A stretch of 25,074 nucleotides of DNA from the IMG/VR virus record IMGVR_UViG_3300025327_000695, positions 1-25,074 of that record. One strand, 5' to 3'. Shown here in pieces: positions 3,490-25,074 of this stretch. This stretch comes from a virus. The notes below the pieces were generated by a model, which searched no databases, was not told where the DNA came from, and saw only the letters and a program-made list of their open reading frames with translations. The translations under genes were made by a program, and so were the position numbers. Numbering within the stretch: position 1 is the first letter of the stretch; each line of letters begins with the position of its first letter.

Positions 3490-3587
3490 ATTTTACACCC
3501 CCTTTTCATTTTTCTAATTATGTAATATACTTCTCCGTTTTCTTTCACGGTTTCGATCTGATAACCTTTTAAAATATTTAAGGTCAT
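3483..3587 (-). CDS. mini-protein, 34 aa, first gene of a two-gene unit
   Basis: The product has an amphipathic, beta-prone body (NILKGYQIETVKENGEVYYI) and a basic CxxC end (KRGCKIC). It overlaps the next ORF by 7 nt and encodes that gene's Shine-Dalgarno site. A TATA-like TTTAAATAGT (- strand, about 3622-3632) lies 35-45 nt upstream, inside one arm of a 13-bp inverted repeat. This layout suggests a regulated promoter. Function unknown. Confidence 0.4.
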   Translation of the reverse strand: MTLNILKGYQIETVKENGEVYYIIRKMKRGCKIC

Positions 3588-3612
3588 TCTTTTGTTTGTC
3601 ATAAAAGAACTA

Positions 3613-3694
3613 AAGAATACTACTATTTAAAGTCTTATGCTAACTAGAAAGTAGATACAAAGTAGTAGTATTCTTATAGTCTAATATAAGACTA
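3613..3694. repeat. interleaved inverted repeats: operator or recombination site candidate
   Basis: AAGAATACTACTA (3613-3625) is the perfect inverse of TAGTAGTATTCTT (3663-3675). AGTCTTAT (3631-3638), inside that pair, is the inverse of ATAAGACT (3686-3693), outside it. TAGTCT/AGACTA (3677-3682/3689-3694) forms a further small hairpin. The order is A-B-A'-B'. The block lies just past the 3' end of the serine recombinase gene and covers the probable TATA box of the - strand mini-operon. It could be a resolution/attachment site for that recombinase, or an operator. Confidence 0.55.
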
Positions 3695-3722
3695 AAAAGG
3701 GACGTTATTAACGAAATGTAAT

Positions 3723-4220
3723 TTACTCATAAAAAGTAGGCTTTTTAGAACCCCCCCTTCGTTTACGTGGATTCTTGTCCTTACCTCTCTTACCAATACC
3801 TATTGCTTTTTTCATTCCTTCTTTAGTTCTCTCACTTATAATATTTCTTTCAAACTCTGCAAATGCACCCATTATCTGCATTTGAAGTTTACCACTTGGA
3901 GTTGAAGTATCTATATGTTGAGTAGCTGCAATAAAGTTAATTCCTTTCTTATTAAATTCATCAAACAAACTTAAGAGATGTTGCAGACTTCTTCCAAGTC
4001 GATCTAATTTAGTAACCATTATAGCATTAAATTTTAGACTTCGCATATCTTCTAACATCTTATTAAATTCTGGCCTACTTGTTGTCTTGCCACTTATAAC
4101 ATCTTTGTAAACTTTATATATCTCAAAGTTATTTCTATTACAATAGTCTTTACATATATCTTCTTGTTTATCTGCATCTTGTTCTTCAGTACTTACCCTA
4201 CAATATATTGCTATCTTCAC
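3723..4220 (-). CDS. small serine recombinase (resolvase/invertase family), 165 aa
   Basis: The N-terminal resolvase catalytic domain is clear: YCRVSTEEQ with the nucleophile Ser10 and Arg8, then KLDRLGRS at 71-78 (conserved DRLxRS), and the long helix region GAFAEFERNIISERTKEGM (118-136). The family cuts and rejoins DNA through a 5'-phosphoserine. The usual C-terminal helix-turn-helix is absent; a short Lys/Arg tail (GKRGKDKNPRKRRGGSKK) replaces it. That tail is encoded across a run of seven G's (C's at 3751-3757 on +), so a slip would change it. GTG 4220 is the start because a TATA box lies 26 nt upstream. Likely roles are dimer resolution, integration or inversion. Confidence 0.9.
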   Translation of the reverse strand: MKIAIYCRVSTEEQDADKQEDICKDYCNRNNFEIYKVYKDVISGKTTSRPEFNKMLEDMRSLKFNAIMVTKLDRLGRSLQHLLSLFDEFNKKGINFIAATQHIDTSTPSGKLQMQIMGAFAEFERNIISERTKEGMKKAIGIGKRGKDKNPRKRRGGSKKPTFYE

Positions 4221-5831: not shown

Positions 5832-5851
5832 TTAGTTATAAGCTTTTTGTT
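5832..5851 (-). promoter_or_regulatory. promoter of the ATPase operon, shared 20-mer
   Basis: Read on the - strand this is AACAAAAAGCTTATAACTAA, identical over 20 bases to 8804-8823 on the + strand. CTTATAAC is the TATA box, 26 nt from ATG 5812, and the A-run before it fits a BRE. Identical spacing to a start codon at both sites shows it is a promoter cassette. Confidence 0.7.
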
Positions 5852-5903: not shown

Positions 5904-8282
5904 ATGCCTATAACAGCACCATCATTTGGTAAACCTGCACCAAATCCATTTACTCCAGCTCCGGCTCCTAAACCTGCCCCAGCAATTCCTTCAGGTCCAA
6001 TTAGTAAACCCACTCCAAGTCTTCCAGGAGTTCCAGCTCCAAAGCCAGTTCCATTTCTACCACCACAAACATATTATGGCGGAGGCGGAGGTGGTGGCGG
6101 AGGTGTAACACCCACTGCTCCACCTATTAGTACGGCACTTCCAACAGGAACTCCCGTTGGTTCAGCAGTTGGTGGAGGAACATTAGTTGTTACTCCGGGA
6201 GCACCAGGTGGAGTAAGTGTTGTTCCAATGTCTACACAAATTAAACCAGCTGTTTCTGTTCAAGTTACTCCAGTTCAACAATATGCTACAGCATCACCAT
6301 ATATTCAACCTCCGACAATATTACCAAAACAAATAACTGCCGTTCCAGAAAATATTCAATTTATGAAATTAACTCCATTCCAACAATTTTATACTTCTGA
6401 TATTGTAACTAAAATAAAAAAAGGCCTGGGCGAACTATTGCCGGAAGGATTTCAAAGAGCAGAACAACCAGTAAGTCCAATAATTACAATAACAAAACCT
6501 TCGATTACTGGGACAAGAGCAACACAAGTTTATGAACAAAGATTTAGAACTGCAGAAGAATTACCTCCAACACAAGCTTATCAAATGGGATTATATAATG
6601 AGAAACAATTCTTAGAAGCAGAAGCTAAATATCAAGCAGCAGCAACATTTGGTACGGGAGTTGTATTGGGAGCAGTATCTATATTAGCTCCCCCAGTTGG
6701 TGTTGCTGCTGGAATATTATATGGGGCAAAAACAATATTAGACTTGCCTGAAATTATTAAAACAACAACAATTTCTCCTAAGGCCACAGCAATAAGTATA
6801 GGAGCAGGATTAGCTGGAGGTGCAGTTGGAGCATTGGGAACTGCATATATAGTTCCAAAGATAAAGGGAGAACTTGCTTCTATTGGAAGACAAGAGATTC
6901 AAATAGAAAAATTATCTTCACAAAAACCATATCCTGAAGCTCCTGTTGAAAAACATTTAGAAATATTTAAAGAAAATAAATATGCTTTGCCTGGAGAAGA
7001 ATCTCCGGGAGTGTATCACGCAACTCCTTACGGTGGTTCATTCAAAGAGACTTTTACAGTTACTCCTGGTTCAAGTGAACTTCCGGGATTATATGTTGCT
7101 CCAGAAGTATCCTATAAATTTTTAAAGATTCAAGGTGTTGAAATACCTGTTCCAAAATTCTTTGATTTGAGTACAACCTCTGTCCTTGAAAAAGCTCCAA
7201 AGATATTGAGGATATATCCAGAAGCAATTGAAGAAGCACCAACATTTGGAGAAATATTATTACCTAAAAAATCAGCTGTAATCATTGAAAGATTTAAAAC
7301 TCGTGGTCCTGAATCAACTAAATTCTTATTAACTAAAGCAGAAAAAGGGGTTGCATATGTTCCTGGAGTTAAAACAGAAATAGAAGCAATAATTCCTCCA
7401 GAAAGTACCTTTGCATTATCTGGACAAAAATTCTATACAGAGTTTATAGGAATAAAAGTTCCAATAGATCAATACATAAGTTCAGCAGAAAAGGGAGTGA
7501 TTAGTGCTTCAGAATTAGAAGGAGGATATATTCCGACATTTAGTATTACTACTCCAGGAACTATTGGTTATGGAATTTCTAGAGTAAAATATGTGCCTTC
7601 TAAAATTTCATATCCATCTAATGTTTCAAAAATAGTATCTCAAGTTTCATCTGTTCCATCTAAATCAATTGCTTCCGTTTCTAAAGTTTCTTATCCTACA
7701 ATTAGTTATCCGAGTATTACAACTTCATCGATAACAACATATCCTTCTATTTCATATCTTCCAATAGTTCCACCATCTTATGTTGTTCCTTATGTGCCTC
7801 CAAAATATCCAATAACTTACTCTCCAATTACACCAAAAATTATTACACCAAAAATTATTCCACCATTTAAATCTTTAGATGAAGAAAAGAGATTTAAATT
7901 TGGAGAGCGTAAAAGAAGAAAAGCCTATTCAGTCTTCCTTAGACGACGTGGAAAATATATTCCAGTAGCAATAGGACTCCCAAGAGAAAGAGCCTTGAAA
8001 TTTGGATCTGAGAAAGCTTTAGGAACTTTGGGTAGGACATTTAAAATTAAGGCTATGGGCGAAACTTTCCAGGAAGATATTGCATTTAAACCAAGAGAGG
8101 ATATATTTAGAACATTTAAAGTTCGCAAGGGGATTAAACAACCACTCGTTGATACATATATACAAAGAGCTAGCAAGTCATTATCTACAAGAGCCGAACG
8201 TGGATTAATTCGTGAGGCAAGAATAGAAAAGCAATCAGGCATAAAAAATCCATTTAGATATAAACAAAAGATATTTATATAG
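5904..8282 (+). CDS. large proline-rich probable structural protein, 792 aa
   Basis: ATG 5904 is chosen because a TATA box sits 25 nt upstream and an upstream in-frame extension would read through the divergent gene. Residues 1-75 are Pro/Ala/Lys-rich and end in nine glycines. Two glycine-rich hydrophobic segments lie at about 250-280 and 295-315 (GVVLGAVSILAPPVGVAAG; SIGAGLAGGAVGALG). At about 368-400 the pattern GVYHATP...GLYVAPEVSYKF recalls the Y-H-[GA]-T...GLY signature of ADP-ribosyltransferase-like folds. A Pro/Ser/Tyr-rich region (about 560-645) precedes a basic C-terminal domain. Size, composition and its place next to the ATPase suggest a virion or DNA-injection protein; this is inference. 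Confidence 0.75.
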   Translation: MPITAPSFGKPAPNPFTPAPAPKPAPAIPSGPISKPTPSLPGVPAPKPVPFLPPQTYYGGGGGGGGGVTPTAPPISTALPTGTPVGSAVGGGTLVVTPGAPGGVSVVPMSTQIKPAVSVQVTPVQQYATASPYIQPPTILPKQITAVPENIQFMKLTPFQQFYTSDIVTKIKKGLGELLPEGFQRAEQPVSPIITITKPSITGTRATQVYEQRFRTAEELPPTQAYQMGLYNEKQFLEAEAKYQAAATFGTGVVLGAVSILAPPVGVAAGILYGAKTILDLPEIIKTTTISPKATAISIGAGLAGGAVGALGTAYIVPKIKGELASIGRQEIQIEKLSSQKPYPEAPVEKHLEIFKENKYALPGEESPGVYHATPYGGSFKETFTVTPGSSELPGLYVAPEVSYKFLKIQGVEIPVPKFFDLSTTSVLEKAPKILRIYPEAIEEAPTFGEILLPKKSAVIIERFKTRGPESTKFLLTKAEKGVAYVPGVKTEIEAIIPPESTFALSGQKFYTEFIGIKVPIDQYISSAEKGVISASELEGGYIPTFSITTPGTIGYGISRVKYVPSKISYPSNVSKIVSQVSSVPSKSIASVSKVSYPTISYPSITTSSITTYPSISYLPIVPPSYVVPYVPPKYPITYSPITPKIITPKIIPPFKSLDEEKRFKFGERKRRKAYSVFLRRRGKYIPVAIGLPRERALKFGSEKALGTLGRTFKIKAMGETFQEDIAFKPREDIFRTFKVRKGIKQPLVDTYIQRASKSLSTRAERGLIREARIEKQSGIKNPFRYKQKIFI
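8274..8282 (+). promoter_or_regulatory. BoxA promoter overlapping a stop codon
   Basis: TTTATATAG supplies both the last codons and TAG stop of the 792-residue gene and the TATA box of the next gene. Its centre is 23-24 nt from ATG 8301, so that transcript would be leaderless. Confidence 0.5.
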
Positions 8283-8300: not shown

Positions 8301-8798
8301 ATGGTATCATTCACAGAGTATACAAAGGCAATCCAATCAGTCAAAGGACAAACTGAAACTTCTAAGTTACAACGCAAGGCAATAAGAAAAAGATATTTAA
8401 GTGAAGCCTCAGCCGAGGGTAAGAAGTTATTAAGTCCCGAATATAGAAAACAAAAAGCTTTTAGATCTTCAGGCATAGGGCAATTCTTTTCTGGCGTAAG
8501 TAAATATCAAAGAGCTATTCAAGGAAGAGGAAGACCAAAAGGATCAACAGATCCTAGATATGCTGCGTATGGTGGAGTTTATGGATATCGTAAGCAATTA
8601 GCTGCTAGATTATCTTCTAATAAAGCATTGGCCAGAGCAGAAGCCTATCGGCAAGCAGCACAGACACAACAATTTCAAAGACAACAGATGGCAAGACAAA
8701 TTCCACAAGAACAACGGACTATCCCAAATACAAGTGGTTTTAGTTCAATAGGAAATTATATGAAAGAAATCGAAGATGCTTCTAATGAAGTTCCTTAA
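8301..8798 (+). CDS. basic AT-hook protein, 165 aa
   Basis: A strongly basic product rich in Arg, Gln and Ala. Residues 76-82 (GRGRPKGS region) match an AT-hook, the short minor-groove element for AT-rich DNA, and an N-terminal basic helix (SKLQRKAIRKRYLSE) precedes it. The second half is Gln/Ala-rich (AEAYRQAAQTQQFQRQQMARQ). It looks like a DNA-binding protein, perhaps a nucleoprotein packed with the genome or a chromatin-like factor for this AT-rich DNA. It has its own promoter and sits inside the probable structural cluster. The family is not recognised. Confidence 0.75.
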   Translation: MVSFTEYTKAIQSVKGQTETSKLQRKAIRKRYLSEASAEGKKLLSPEYRKQKAFRSSGIGQFFSGVSKYQRAIQGRGRPKGSTDPRYAAYGGVYGYRKQLAARLSSNKALARAEAYRQAAQTQQFQRQQMARQIPQEQRTIPNTSGFSSIGNYMKEIEDASNEVP

Positions 8799-8803
8799 GA
8801 ATT

Positions 8804-8823
8804 AACAAAAAGCTTATAACTAA
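8804..8823 (+). promoter_or_regulatory. promoter of the 8842 gene, shared 20-mer
   Basis: AACAAAAAGCTTATAACTAA is the same 20 bases as 5832-5851 on the - strand. CTTATAAC is the TATA box, about 26 nt before ATG 8842. The two genes or operons are therefore likely to be co-expressed. Confidence 0.7.
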
Positions 8824-20674: not shown

Positions 20675-20809
20675 ATGCATAAAGGAAAATTACATATAGT
20701 AGTTCCAAGAGTTCCAGTACTAAAAGCCAGTAGTAAAACTTTGAGTTCTGCATTGCATACTAGTAAAAAAAGAAGTATGCCAATGCGAGCAAGAATGAAA
20801 ATTTATTAG
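20675..20809 (+). CDS. tiny basic protein, 44 aa
   Basis: ATG 20675 has GGGAGG (20661-20666) at good spacing. The product is basic with two short beta-like stretches (KLHIVVPRVPVLK) and a Ser-rich, Met/Arg-rich end (SKKRSMPMRARMKIY). There are no cysteines or membrane segments. It is the last of the three basic mini-genes, and a non-coding region of about 350 bp follows it. Function unknown. Confidence 0.6.
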   Translation: MHKGKLHIVVPRVPVLKASSKTLSSALHTSKKRSMPMRARMKIY

Positions 20810-20824
20810 ACTTTTTTTAAAACG

Positions 20825-20844
20825 ATAAACTATTTAAAGTTTAT
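20825..20844 (+). promoter_or_regulatory. promoter of the structured RNA, flanked by an inverted repeat
   Basis: The TATA-like TATTTAAAG (20831-20839) is framed by the perfect inverted pair ATAAACT (20825-20831) and AGTTTAT (20838-20844). Transcription would start near 20860. The 12-mer ACTATTTAAAGT here (20829-20840) also occurs at 3622-3633. The inverted repeat over the TATA box looks like a repressor site or a two-way promoter. Confidence 0.55.
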
Positions 20845-20859
20845 TTTCTTTTAATCTGT

Positions 20860-21078
20860 GTGCCATGATTCCTCGGCTGAGTTATCGTCGGTATGCTCAA
20901 GCACATTCAAAAAGGGACGGAAATATATTTTAGACCTCTAAAATAAACCTTCATACTTTTGTAAAAACAAAAGACACTCTTTTTTAAATTCAGAGAAGAA
21001 ATGAAAGACAATCTTTGTAGGCGTGGTGTCTTGATCTTCTCTTCCGTCCCCGAAAACTATAATTTATTAGATTTTTTG
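20860..21078 (+). ncRNA. structured non-coding RNA with a kink-turn
   Basis: This roughly 220-nt stretch has no convincing ORF but folds well. A 5' hairpin pairs 20876-20881 with 20896-20902 (one bulged A). A closing helix pairs GGGACGGAA (20914-20922) with TTCCGTCCC (21042-21050). Inside are TATTTTAG/CTAAAATA (20926-20933/20938-20945, ACCT loop), CTTTTGT/ACAAAAG (20956-20962/20967-20973, AAAA loop), and GAGAAGA/TCTTCTC (20993-20999/21035-21041). The last is followed by AAT-GA on one strand and GA on the other, then AAGACA/TGTCTT (21005-21010/21027-21032). That is a canonical kink-turn: 3-nt bulge plus tandem G-A pairs. L7Ae-family proteins bind such motifs. A promoter precedes it and a T-run (21072-21077) follows. 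Class unknown. Confidence 0.7.
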
Positions 21079-21106
21079 TAATTGTCACGTAGTAGTGATG
21101 ATAAAA

Positions 21107-21116
21107 GTTTAAATAG
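21107..21116 (+). promoter_or_regulatory. BoxA promoter of the replication operon
   Basis: GTTTAAATAG, followed by T, is the same 11-mer as at 24261-24271. It lies about 50 nt before ATG 21163, so this transcript would have a short leader with a GAGG Shine-Dalgarno site (about 21151-21154). It probably starts the replication/accessory operon. Confidence 0.5.
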
Positions 21117-21162: not shown

Positions 21163-21384
21163 ATGACCGAAATTGAAACGATAAAACAAAAGATACAAAT
21201 TCTAAAAGACTTAAATAAGTTTGTACATATTACTTTAGAAAATGGAAAATTCTATAACGGAGTTATTACTTATATCTCGGCAGATTTTATTTTTATTGAT
21301 GAAAGGAAAGAGGGAAAAGATTGGCTGATATTTATTTCTGAAATTAAAGCAATTGATCTTTACGAAAAGAAAGGTGAAGAATGA
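21163..21384 (+). CDS. Sm-like (LSm/Hfq-type) small protein, 73 aa
   Basis: A short N-terminal helix (about residues 4-18) precedes a five-strand pattern: FVHITLENGKFYNGVITYIS, DFIFIDER, DWLIFISEIKAIDLYEK. The order helix, V-x-I-x-L-x-N/D-G-x-x-x-x-G, hydrophobic strand, then ISEIKAI near the end matches the Sm1/Sm2 layout of the Sm fold, which forms RNA-binding rings. A single SH3-like barrel is the alternative. The gene lies directly downstream of the structured RNA and overlaps the helicase start (ATGA), so an RNA-related or replication-control role is plausible. Identification is by pattern only. Confidence 0.55.
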   Translation: MTEIETIKQKIQILKDLNKFVHITLENGKFYNGVITYISADFIFIDERKEGKDWLIFISEIKAIDLYEKKGEE

Positions 21385-22736
21385 CTCTTGGATTAACTTC
21401 TCCAATACCTTCTGACTTCTATGATTATTTAAAAGAAGATGAAAAAAATCAGCCTATTGAAGATAAGTGGCGATTATATAATCTTAGAAAGGCAGTTGGA
21501 CAAAATATAAAACAGAAAGAGATTGAAAAAAAGAAAATCGAAGTAAGTAAATGTTATGAAAAGATAATTGAAATATTATCTAAATATGTGGATATGAATG
21601 AAGAACAGAAAAAAATAATCGCCGTATGGATAATGGGAACATATTTTCATGAACAATTTAATACCTATCCATATTTATTCTTTAATGCTATGAGGGGATC
21701 TGGTAAAACAAGAACCCTTAAATTAATATCTTCTCTCGGAGCTAAGGGAGATGGTTCTGTACAAAATAATCTGACTGACGCAGTCCTATTCAGAATTCCG
21801 AGAGGTACTACTACTTGTATTGATGAGGTTGAACAGATAGGCCATCGAGATAAACAGACATTAAGAGAACTTTTGAACTCTGCCTATAAAAAGGGTATGA
21901 AAGTCAAACGAATGAAGAAAGTACATAAAGATAAAGAAGAAAAGCAAGAGGTAGAAGTCTTTGAACCTTACTTCCCTATTGCCTTAGCTAACATCTGGGG
22001 TATGGATGAAGTATTAGGAGATCGGGCAATAACTTTAGTTTTAGAAAAGTCTAACCATCAGTCTATAACCAAAATGATAGAAGATTTTGATACAAATACT
22101 GAAATCTTAGAGATTAAACGAACTTTAACTCAATTTAGTGACGTTAGTGACGTGACGTTACCGAAAAAAACATATATACAGCACTGGAACACCTACATCT
22201 GTCAGAAGTACAACGTCATATCATCATCATCATCATCTACGTCATTAAACATCATATCATCATTAGAAGATATAGAAAGAGATCAATTATTTAATAAAAT
22301 AGATGAAATGGGGATTCATGGAAGAAACCTAGAATTGTTTTTACCATTACTTTTAACTGCTAAAGATATAGGAGAAGAAGTGTTTGTAGATATTCTCAAT
22401 GTAGCTAAAAATATGTCTCATCAAAAGAAAGAAGATGAATATCAAGATTCTAAAGATGTTTCTTTGTTTGAATTTATTACTCATCTTGAAAATGATTTAG
22501 GATTAAACTATATTGCTTTAAAAGAACTTACTCAAAAATTCAGGCACTTTGTTGGAGATGTCGAAGAGTTTGAAGATAAGTGGTTAAATGAAAAGTGGTT
22601 GGGTCGAGCTTTAAAGAGATTGAATTTATCACTAAATAAAAAGAAGTTATCTGCTGGAGTTCAAGTCATGCTTAATTTTGGTAAAGCAAAAGAAAAGTTA
22701 AAGATATTCAAGCATCAAGAAGAGGTAAAGTCATGA
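21381..22736 (+). CDS. AAA+ replicative helicase/primase-type ATPase, 451 aa
   Basis: Walker A is NAMRGSGKT (residues 102-110), Walker B is TTTCIDE (143-149), and PIALANIWGMDEVLGDRAI (199-217) supplies the sensor and arginine-finger region. This set resembles the helicase-like C-terminal domains of phage/plasmid primases (DUF3631-like and related AAA+). The N-terminal 60 residues are charged. A Ser-rich linker (VISSSSSSTS) separates the ATPase from a C-terminal helical domain that may bind DNA. It is the only recognised replication enzyme, so the element probably borrows host polymerase and primase. It overlaps the Sm-like gene upstream and the zinc-ribbon gene downstream (both ATGA). Confidence 0.8.
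   Translation: MTLGLTSPIPSDFYDYLKEDEKNQPIEDKWRLYNLRKAVGQNIKQKEIEKKKIEVSKCYEKIIEILSKYVDMNEEQKKIIAVWIMGTYFHEQFNTYPYLFFNAMRGSGKTRTLKLISSLGAKGDGSVQNNLTDAVLFRIPRGTTTCIDEVEQIGHRDKQTLRELLNSAYKKGMKVKRMKKVHKDKEEKQEVEVFEPYFPIALANIWGMDEVLGDRAITLVLEKSNHQSITKMIEDFDTNTEILEIKRTLTQFSDVSDVTLPKKTYIQHWNTYICQKYNVISSSSSSTSLNIISSLEDIERDQLFNKIDEMGIHGRNLELFLPLLLTAKDIGEEVFVDILNVAKNMSHQKKEDEYQDSKDVSLFEFITHLENDLGLNYIALKELTQKFRHFVGDVEEFEDKWLNEKWLGRALKRLNLSLNKKKLSAGVQVMLNFGKAKEKLKIFKHQEEVKS
22139..22244. repeat. cluster of TGACGT motifs, possible origin or binding site
   Basis: TGACGT occurs three times in direct orientation (22139-22144, 22148-22153, 22153-22158), and its inverse ACGTCA twice (22213-22218, 22239-22244), in 106 bp of an AT-rich gene. 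A run of CATCATCAT lies between the last two. Clustered short repeats inside or beside a replication gene are typical of iterons, but the peptide here (DVSDVT; the Ser linker) could also explain part of the pattern. Confidence 0.35.
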
Positions 22737-23380: not shown

Positions 23381-23541
23381 TTATTAACTCACAGTCCATA
23401 AGGAATCTTTCTTTAATAGATTCAGGTTGTGGCTGGACACGGGCGATGCACTCTGCCTTCAAAACCCGCAACCAATATTCCAGATTTGGAGGGGTTTATT
23501 TTGCCATAAATTTTTCCCTTTCAGGTCTGGCAAGAATCTAA
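23377..23541 (+). CDS. short ORF (54 aa) or structured RNA, ambiguous
   Basis: The ORF starts in the HNH stop (ATGA) and would make a 54-residue protein with no clear motif. The DNA is unusually GC-rich for this element and has good inverted repeats: GGTTGTGG/CCGCAACC (23425-23432/23466-23473, one G-T pair), and a nested long hairpin CCAGA/TCTGG (23480-23484/23526-23530) around AGGG/CCCT and TTTAT/ATAAA. Both a real small gene and an RNA element are possible. The first hairpin resembles a tRNA acceptor stem but is far too short for a tRNA. Confidence 0.35.
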   Translation: MIINSQSIRNLSLIDSGCGWTRAMHSAFKTRNQYSRFGGVYFAINFSLSGLARI

Positions 23542-23542
23542 A

Positions 23543-23665
23543 ATGACAACTATTACAAATCTTATCAATGGATATACAGTTAAAACACTTTTAGTTATTG
23601 CAGCCTTATTGATTCTATTTTTTGCAATATTGATAAATGAACTTAGTCGGGAGCAAAATAAGTGA
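23543..23665 (+). CDS. single-pass membrane peptide, 40 aa
   Basis: A 40-residue product with a hydrophobic helix (about 13-31, KTLLVIAALLILFFAILI) and a charged end (NELSREQNK). Its stop overlaps the GTG of the next peptide (GTGA). The pair resembles the two tiny membrane peptides at 669-895, again with the second one smaller. No Shine-Dalgarno site is obvious. Function unknown. Confidence 0.45.
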   Translation: MTTITNLINGYTVKTLLVIAALLILFFAILINELSREQNK

Positions 23666-24982: not shown

Positions 24983-25068
24983 GAAACAATCTTAAAGATC
25001 CGGATTATTCTTATTCAAATGAATATATTGAAAACTGGTTAGATAAATTAAAAGAGGAGATTATTTAA
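24979..25068 (+). CDS. 29-aa ORF spanning the circle junction
   Basis: ATG 24979 overlaps the previous stop, and the ORF ends at TAA 25066-25068. The same bases from codon 2 on also form positions 1-86. The acidic peptide (MRNNLKDPDYSYSNEY...) has no motif. It carries AGAGGAG near its end, a ribosome-site sequence without a close start, and the next gene lies 33 nt on, at 119. Its value is mainly that coding continuity crosses the junction. Confidence 0.4.
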   Translation: MRNNLKDPDYSYSNEYIENWLDKLKEEII

Positions 25069-25074
25069 TTATAT
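24983..25074. repeat. terminal direct repeat, right copy
   Basis: Identical to 1-92 over 92 bases. See the left copy: this is most likely an assembly overlap of a circular molecule, with position 24983 equal to position 1. Confidence 0.9.

Follow-up and report, generated by a model that had tools for sequence, protein, structure and literature searches.

U4 snRNA and the viral Sm-class RNAs (HSURs) combine a kink-turn, in which an AAU bulge is followed by GA, with an unpaired U-rich run for an Sm-type ring. In archaea, mRNA repression by L7Ae acts via kink-turns in the leader (PMC5539422, PMC6298567), and many non-coding RNAs of Sulfolobus are bound by this protein (PMC5539422). An A:U pair at position 3b:3n blocks kink-turn folding in metal ions, and all kink-turns analysed in the same work fold on L7Ae; the kink-turn of the A. 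fulgidus l7ae leader, with A:U at 3b:3n, requires L7Ae for folding (PMC6298567). Furthermore, Hfq-like genes lie beside helicase genes on archaeal plasmids, and one is also found in Pyrobaculum spherical virus (PMC3543421).

The window analysed here, the whole stretch of 25,074 nt, is the IMG/VR virus record IMGVR_UViG_3300025327_000695 with 31% GC. Its ends form an exact 92-nt direct repeat (1–92 identical to 24983–25074), and it hence most plausibly represents a complete circular genome of 24,982 bp. A non-coding stretch on the + strand, 20858–21078, is a real and unusual element with structure, which is probably an RNA. Like the archaeal l7ae mRNA 5' leader, it features a simple kink-turn with a 3-nt bulge and tandem G.A, and it shares the A:U pair at 3b:3n with the A. 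fulgidus leader (PMC6298567). In contrast to the leader, the element is viral and stands behind a separate candidate promoter, at a distance of about 120 nt from the start codon that follows; moreover, its kink-turn sits inside a larger multi-helix domain, and the bulge is AAU rather than GAU.

With archaeal box C/D sRNAs the element has a kink-turn of the L7Ae-binding class in common, but it contains one kink-turn only, is about 220 nt long and has no guide layout. Box C (RUGAUGA) and box D (CUGA) are absent from the kink-turn strands, which read AAUGAAA and UUGA, and no Rfam C/D family was found in the interval on the + strand. A box C/D identity was hence rejected for lack of box C/D sequence. 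Archaeal H/ACA sRNAs likewise carry a kink-turn in a long arm; here, however, about 70 nt bearing two hairpins lie on one side only, with no 3' side of the pocket, and an H/ACA identity was rejected because the fold lacks a two-sided pseudouridylation pocket. U4 snRNA and the HSURs share with the element the AAU bulge followed by GA and the unpaired U-rich run, a resemblance only, since the order of the parts differs and the element matches no Rfam family. As on archaeal plasmids and in Pyrobaculum spherical virus, a Sm/Hfq-fold gene stands beside a helicase/ATPase gene on a mobile element (PMC3543421), although here it lies upstream of the ATPase gene, has no zinc finger and is preceded by a structured RNA.

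Predicted fold and kink-turn arm

The initial annotation had described a structured RNA in a viral non-coding region and had called for folding against shuffled controls. From 20855 to 21080, the predicted folding energy was −57.2 kcal/mol, compared with −40.8 ± 4.0 kcal/mol for 200 dinucleotide shuffles (z −4.06), none of which folded as well. The closed domain (20912–21052) reached a z of −4.42 against shuffles. For a 220-nt frame from 20858 to 21077, z was −4.56 on the + strand and −2.04 on the − strand. Among 452 tiles covering both strands of the genome, only one had a z below −4. All helices named in the initial annotation were recovered in their places. No ORF of more than 34 aa lies within the interval, and shorter ORFs score as non-coding by codon usage.

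Pairing is predicted with high probability almost throughout the closing helix, the two inner hairpins, the kink-turn arm and a 5' hairpin; the weak pairs are the ninth in the closing helix (0.34) and the final one in the NC helix (0.63). The 5' hairpin (20858–20896, + strand; pair probabilities 0.94–0.98, z −2.1 alone), which was omitted from the earlier description, is part of the unit, and from this it follows that the element starts slightly before 20860. The closing helix, formed by GGGACGGAA (20914–20922) and TTCCGTCCC (21042–21050), comprises 9 bp, of which seven have probabilities of at least 0.99 and the eighth 0.93. The inner hairpins are TATTTTAG-ACCT-CTAAAATA (20926–20945, 0.87–1.0) and CTTTTGT-AAAA-ACAAAAG (20956–20973, 0.86–0.95). 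The 9-bp helix and two stable hairpins reported earlier are thus well determined by their pair probabilities. A U6 run in the multibranch loop (20980–20985, + strand) is predicted to be unpaired (probability 0.88–0.97) and is a possible Sm/Hfq-type site; as the genome is AT-rich, however, this run points only weakly to a link with an Sm-like protein. Switching through pairing of AAGACAC (20971–20977) with GTGTCTT (21026–21032), as suggested in the initial annotation, is possible on paper, but the alternative costs 5.5 kcal/mol and has a probability of about 0.001. We therefore rejected it on energy.

The longest arm (20993–21041, + strand) carries the kink-turn, and its layout can be read directly in the DNA. 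On the 5' strand, GAGAAGA (20993–20999) is followed by the AAT bulge (21000–21002), GA (21003–21004) and AAGACA (21005–21010), and on the 3' strand TGTCTT (21027–21032) is followed by GA (21033–21034) and TCTTCTC (21035–21041). The standard parts of a simple kink-turn are hence all in place, namely a C helix of 7 bp, a 3-nt bulge, tandem G.A and A.G pairs and an NC helix of 6 bp, with an apical region of 16 nt. Pair probabilities ranged from 0.92 to 0.98 in the C helix and from 0.63 to 0.99 in the NC helix. In a 25-kb genome of the same composition, an exact Watson–Crick kink-turn with 7 + 6 bp is expected 0.0025 times by chance, and one with 5 + 5 bp 0.025 times; a relaxed scan with 5 + 4 bp over about 0.5 Mb of examined loci gave only four other matches. 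The exact kink-turn of the initial annotation is thus confirmed, and its description as an L7Ae-type site agrees with the rules for L7Ae binding, including the A:U at 3b:3n that the A. fulgidus l7ae leader also has (PMC6298567). By these rules, the viral kink-turn would fold on L7Ae and not in metal ions alone. We consider a small RNA gene probably the most fitting identity of the folded stretch.

The virus, its relatives and the segment before the Sm-like gene

The first gene downstream of the element (21163–21384, + strand) encodes a protein of 73 aa. Its AlphaFold2 model (pLDDT 86) shows an N-terminal helix and a five-stranded bent sheet, as in the Sm/LSm/Hfq fold, and the highest-scoring structure matches (VIA) were Hfq (Z 10.8) and Sm proteins, human SmD2 (Z 9.5) among them. 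Pfam LSM was matched by 5 of the 11 family members at E ≤1, with a best value of 0.00055, whereas the protein of the window itself had no Pfam match. We regard the product as a predicted Sm/Hfq-like protein. It is followed by a P-loop ATPase gene (GSGKT, 451 aa; 21381–22736, + strand; alignment A3), its partner also in relatives; the structure model of the ATPase (pLDDT 59) was too poor for use.

Relatives of the ATPase occur in IMG/VR contigs (38–51% identity) and, within Candidatus Pacearchaeota assemblies, on three contigs (39–48% identity), and it is weakly similar to a protein of Methanobacterium virus PhiF3 (25% identity). The virus and its relatives have structural genes in common, as well as a serine recombinase gene and others. 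Because relatives lie in Pacearchaeota assemblies, into which viral contigs may be wrongly binned, we infer that the host belongs to the Pacearchaeota or close DPANN, which would probably make it a tiny symbiotic archaeon. L7Ae is encoded in all three of these assemblies. The Sm-like and ATPase gene pair (21163–22736) recurs in about ten relatives; an Sm/Hfq-fold gene followed by a P-loop ATPase gene, sometimes with small ORFs between them, is present in L004, L005, L006, L007, L009, L035, L042, L043 and L046, from a family of probable viruses and proviruses of Pacearchaeota.

Elsewhere in the genome, exact 20-bp inverted repeats (5832–5851 and 8804–8823) flank two ORFs (about 5906–8282 and 8301–8798), and the segment between them may be invertible, with phase variation of a structural gene. 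A serine recombinase gene lies at 3723–4220 (− strand). The non-coding DNA beside it contains a long imperfect inverted repeat (3561–3760; z −5.8 for 3601–3760), possibly an attachment or recombination site. A second structured stretch (23385–23545, + strand; z −4.0, but −2.1 in a 220-nt frame) lies within an ORF of 54 aa, which shares ATGA with the HNH stop, and gave a weak match to permuted tmRNA below threshold (21 bits versus 47). L008, a Pacearchaeota provirus fragment, has a further long inverted repeat, TTGTTAAGAGAAGAAA...TTTCTTCTCTTAACAA, in a non-coding part (210–280).

A homologous RNA was found neither in IMG/VR nor in about 380 related genomes. Distant blastn searches of phage and plasmid collections gave AT-rich chance matches only, and in Rfam 15 the window had no match at the gathering threshold and chance matches only in a permissive search. 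A single-sequence covariance model (R1) detected no homologue in the relatives, in 18 genomes around a Pacearchaeota genome or in 378 such genomes, the last being a weak search with strict filters and without positive control. Among 13 matches of the closing-helix DNA pattern in IMG/VR, most belonged to a MITE-like family that is unrelated and has the ends GGGACGGAAGGGAC; such elements, of about 120–140 bp with these terminal repeats, occur in the IMG/VR contigs L019–L025, L028, L030 and L031. Matches to the kink-turn pattern were two phage coding stretches, judged to be chance, and nearly all of the 15 matches to the 3'-arm pattern fell into one unrelated phage gene family. When the element was aligned locally to the DNA preceding the Sm-like gene in relatives, no score rose above those of shuffles apart from marginal ones for L041 and L046, and a similarity through TTTAGACCTC, common to the element and L035, failed the alignment test.

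The Sm-like/ATPase module is thus kept in about ten relatives and the RNA is not, and since relatives with the gene pair are without it, the RNA is not essential to the virus family. At the same position, hairpin-rich non-coding DNA was found in L035 (z −2.9 overall and −4.5 in its 3' part), L046 (z −3.6) and L007 (z −3.7), in each case unrelated to the element and without significant sequence similarity to it, while several other relatives have no hairpin-rich segment before the Sm-like gene. A fast-changing structured segment hence is a recurring but not a universal feature of this site. L007 (6411–6428) and L046 (974–991) also have the motif ATAATAATCACCTCTTTT in common, upstream of the Sm-like gene and before a hairpin; ATCACCTC is similar to the 16S rRNA 3' end.

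These unrelated hairpins are the strongest argument against over-reading the kink-turn, and they leave room for a more ordinary role. The segment might be a 3'-end or boundary structure between the late structural and the Sm-like/ATPase operons, serving in termination or transcript protection, with an incidental kink-turn. We consider this unlikely. The preceding operon codes for membrane proteins and small basic proteins; it seems to finish at a T7 run of its own (20812–20818, + strand), likely an archaeal-type terminator, just after its last small ORF (20675–20809), and a TATA-like box follows. In addition, the predicted structure is a domain of several helices that includes an exact kink-turn, and several relatives have nothing at this site.

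Transcription signals and a proposed RNA gene

The TATA-like box TATTTAAAG (20831–20839, + strand), centred about 25 nt upstream of 20860, is suggestive of a promoter of the RNA, and a T6 run behind the last helix (21072–21077, + strand) is its candidate terminator. Both motifs are short, the window contains 42 copies of TTTAAA and the genome has 31% GC, so that they support a separate transcript but do not prove it. A further TATA box, TTTAAATA (21108–21115, + strand), precedes the next operon, and the 16 nt around it, ATAAAAGTTTAAATAG, recur unchanged in front of the same gene in L007. As that operon has a conserved promoter of its own, it does not require the RNA as a leader. Were the element a leader, the Sm-like/ATPase mRNA would begin with it, and L7Ae or another factor bound there would regulate the operon in cis, as L7Ae represses mRNAs through leader kink-turns in the archaeal l7ae leader (PMC5539422, PMC6298567). 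The element indeed lies just upstream of the Sm-like gene and is co-directional with it. We nevertheless think this unlikely, given the T6 run and conserved TATA box between RNA and gene, a kink-turn about 120 nt from the start codon and not at the ribosome-binding site, and an operon that is kept in relatives without the RNA.

We tentatively favour a small RNA gene that stands on its own in an archaeal virus, with a kink-turn that would bind host L7Ae and an RNA that the viral Sm-like protein may share. Transcription would start from its own TATA-type promoter at about 20858–20861 and end at the T-run near 21077. The RNA would then fold into the 5' hairpin and the closed multi-helix domain, and host L7Ae would bind and fold the kink-turn in the longest arm to give an L7Ae ribonucleoprotein. 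The adjacent viral Sm/Hfq-like protein may use the same RNA via the unpaired U-rich loop, as gene adjacency and the U6 run suggest. In agreement with a separate RNA, the fold is strand-specific (z −4.1 to −4.6 on the + strand), putative promoter and T-run frame the helices and the next operon is served by its own conserved promoter. The exact kink-turn, hardly expected by chance, is of the A:U class that folds on L7Ae (PMC6298567), a protein with many non-coding RNA partners in Sulfolobus (PMC5539422) and with genes in the three Pacearchaeota assemblies that hold relatives; the neighbouring gene product has a predicted Sm/Hfq fold. Against a stand-alone RNA gene speak the missing homologues, and therefore missing covariation, the short AT-rich signals and a host deduced from relatives.

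Going further, a viral snRNP-like particle, in which the kink-turn and U-rich RNA joins host L7Ae and a viral Sm/Hfq-like ring to act on host or viral RNAs, appears quite unlikely. Very unlikely, too, is a DNA element such as a hairpin-bearing replication origin: the segment is non-coding, hairpin-rich and adjoins a putative replication ATPase gene, but the + strand folds far better (z −4.56 versus −2.04), iterons and a GC-skew turn are absent from the site, and a kink-turn is an RNA motif. That a random non-coding stretch folds and contains a kink-turn layout is equally improbable, since a fold among the best of 452 tiles and a kink-turn expected 0.0025 times coincide in the same 220 nt, even for an orphan, unconserved element picked for its striking look.

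Little is known about non-coding RNAs of archaeal viruses, and the open-access literature searched for archaeal viruses with kink-turn or L7Ae held no report of a viral RNA that recruits L7Ae. If binding were shown, the RNA preferred here would be a variant of the known kind of L7Ae/kink-turn RNAs. DPANN viruses would then exploit a core ribosomal and sRNP protein of their hosts, and the conserved viral Sm/Hfq-like gene would offer a handle on the targets of Sm proteins from mobile elements.
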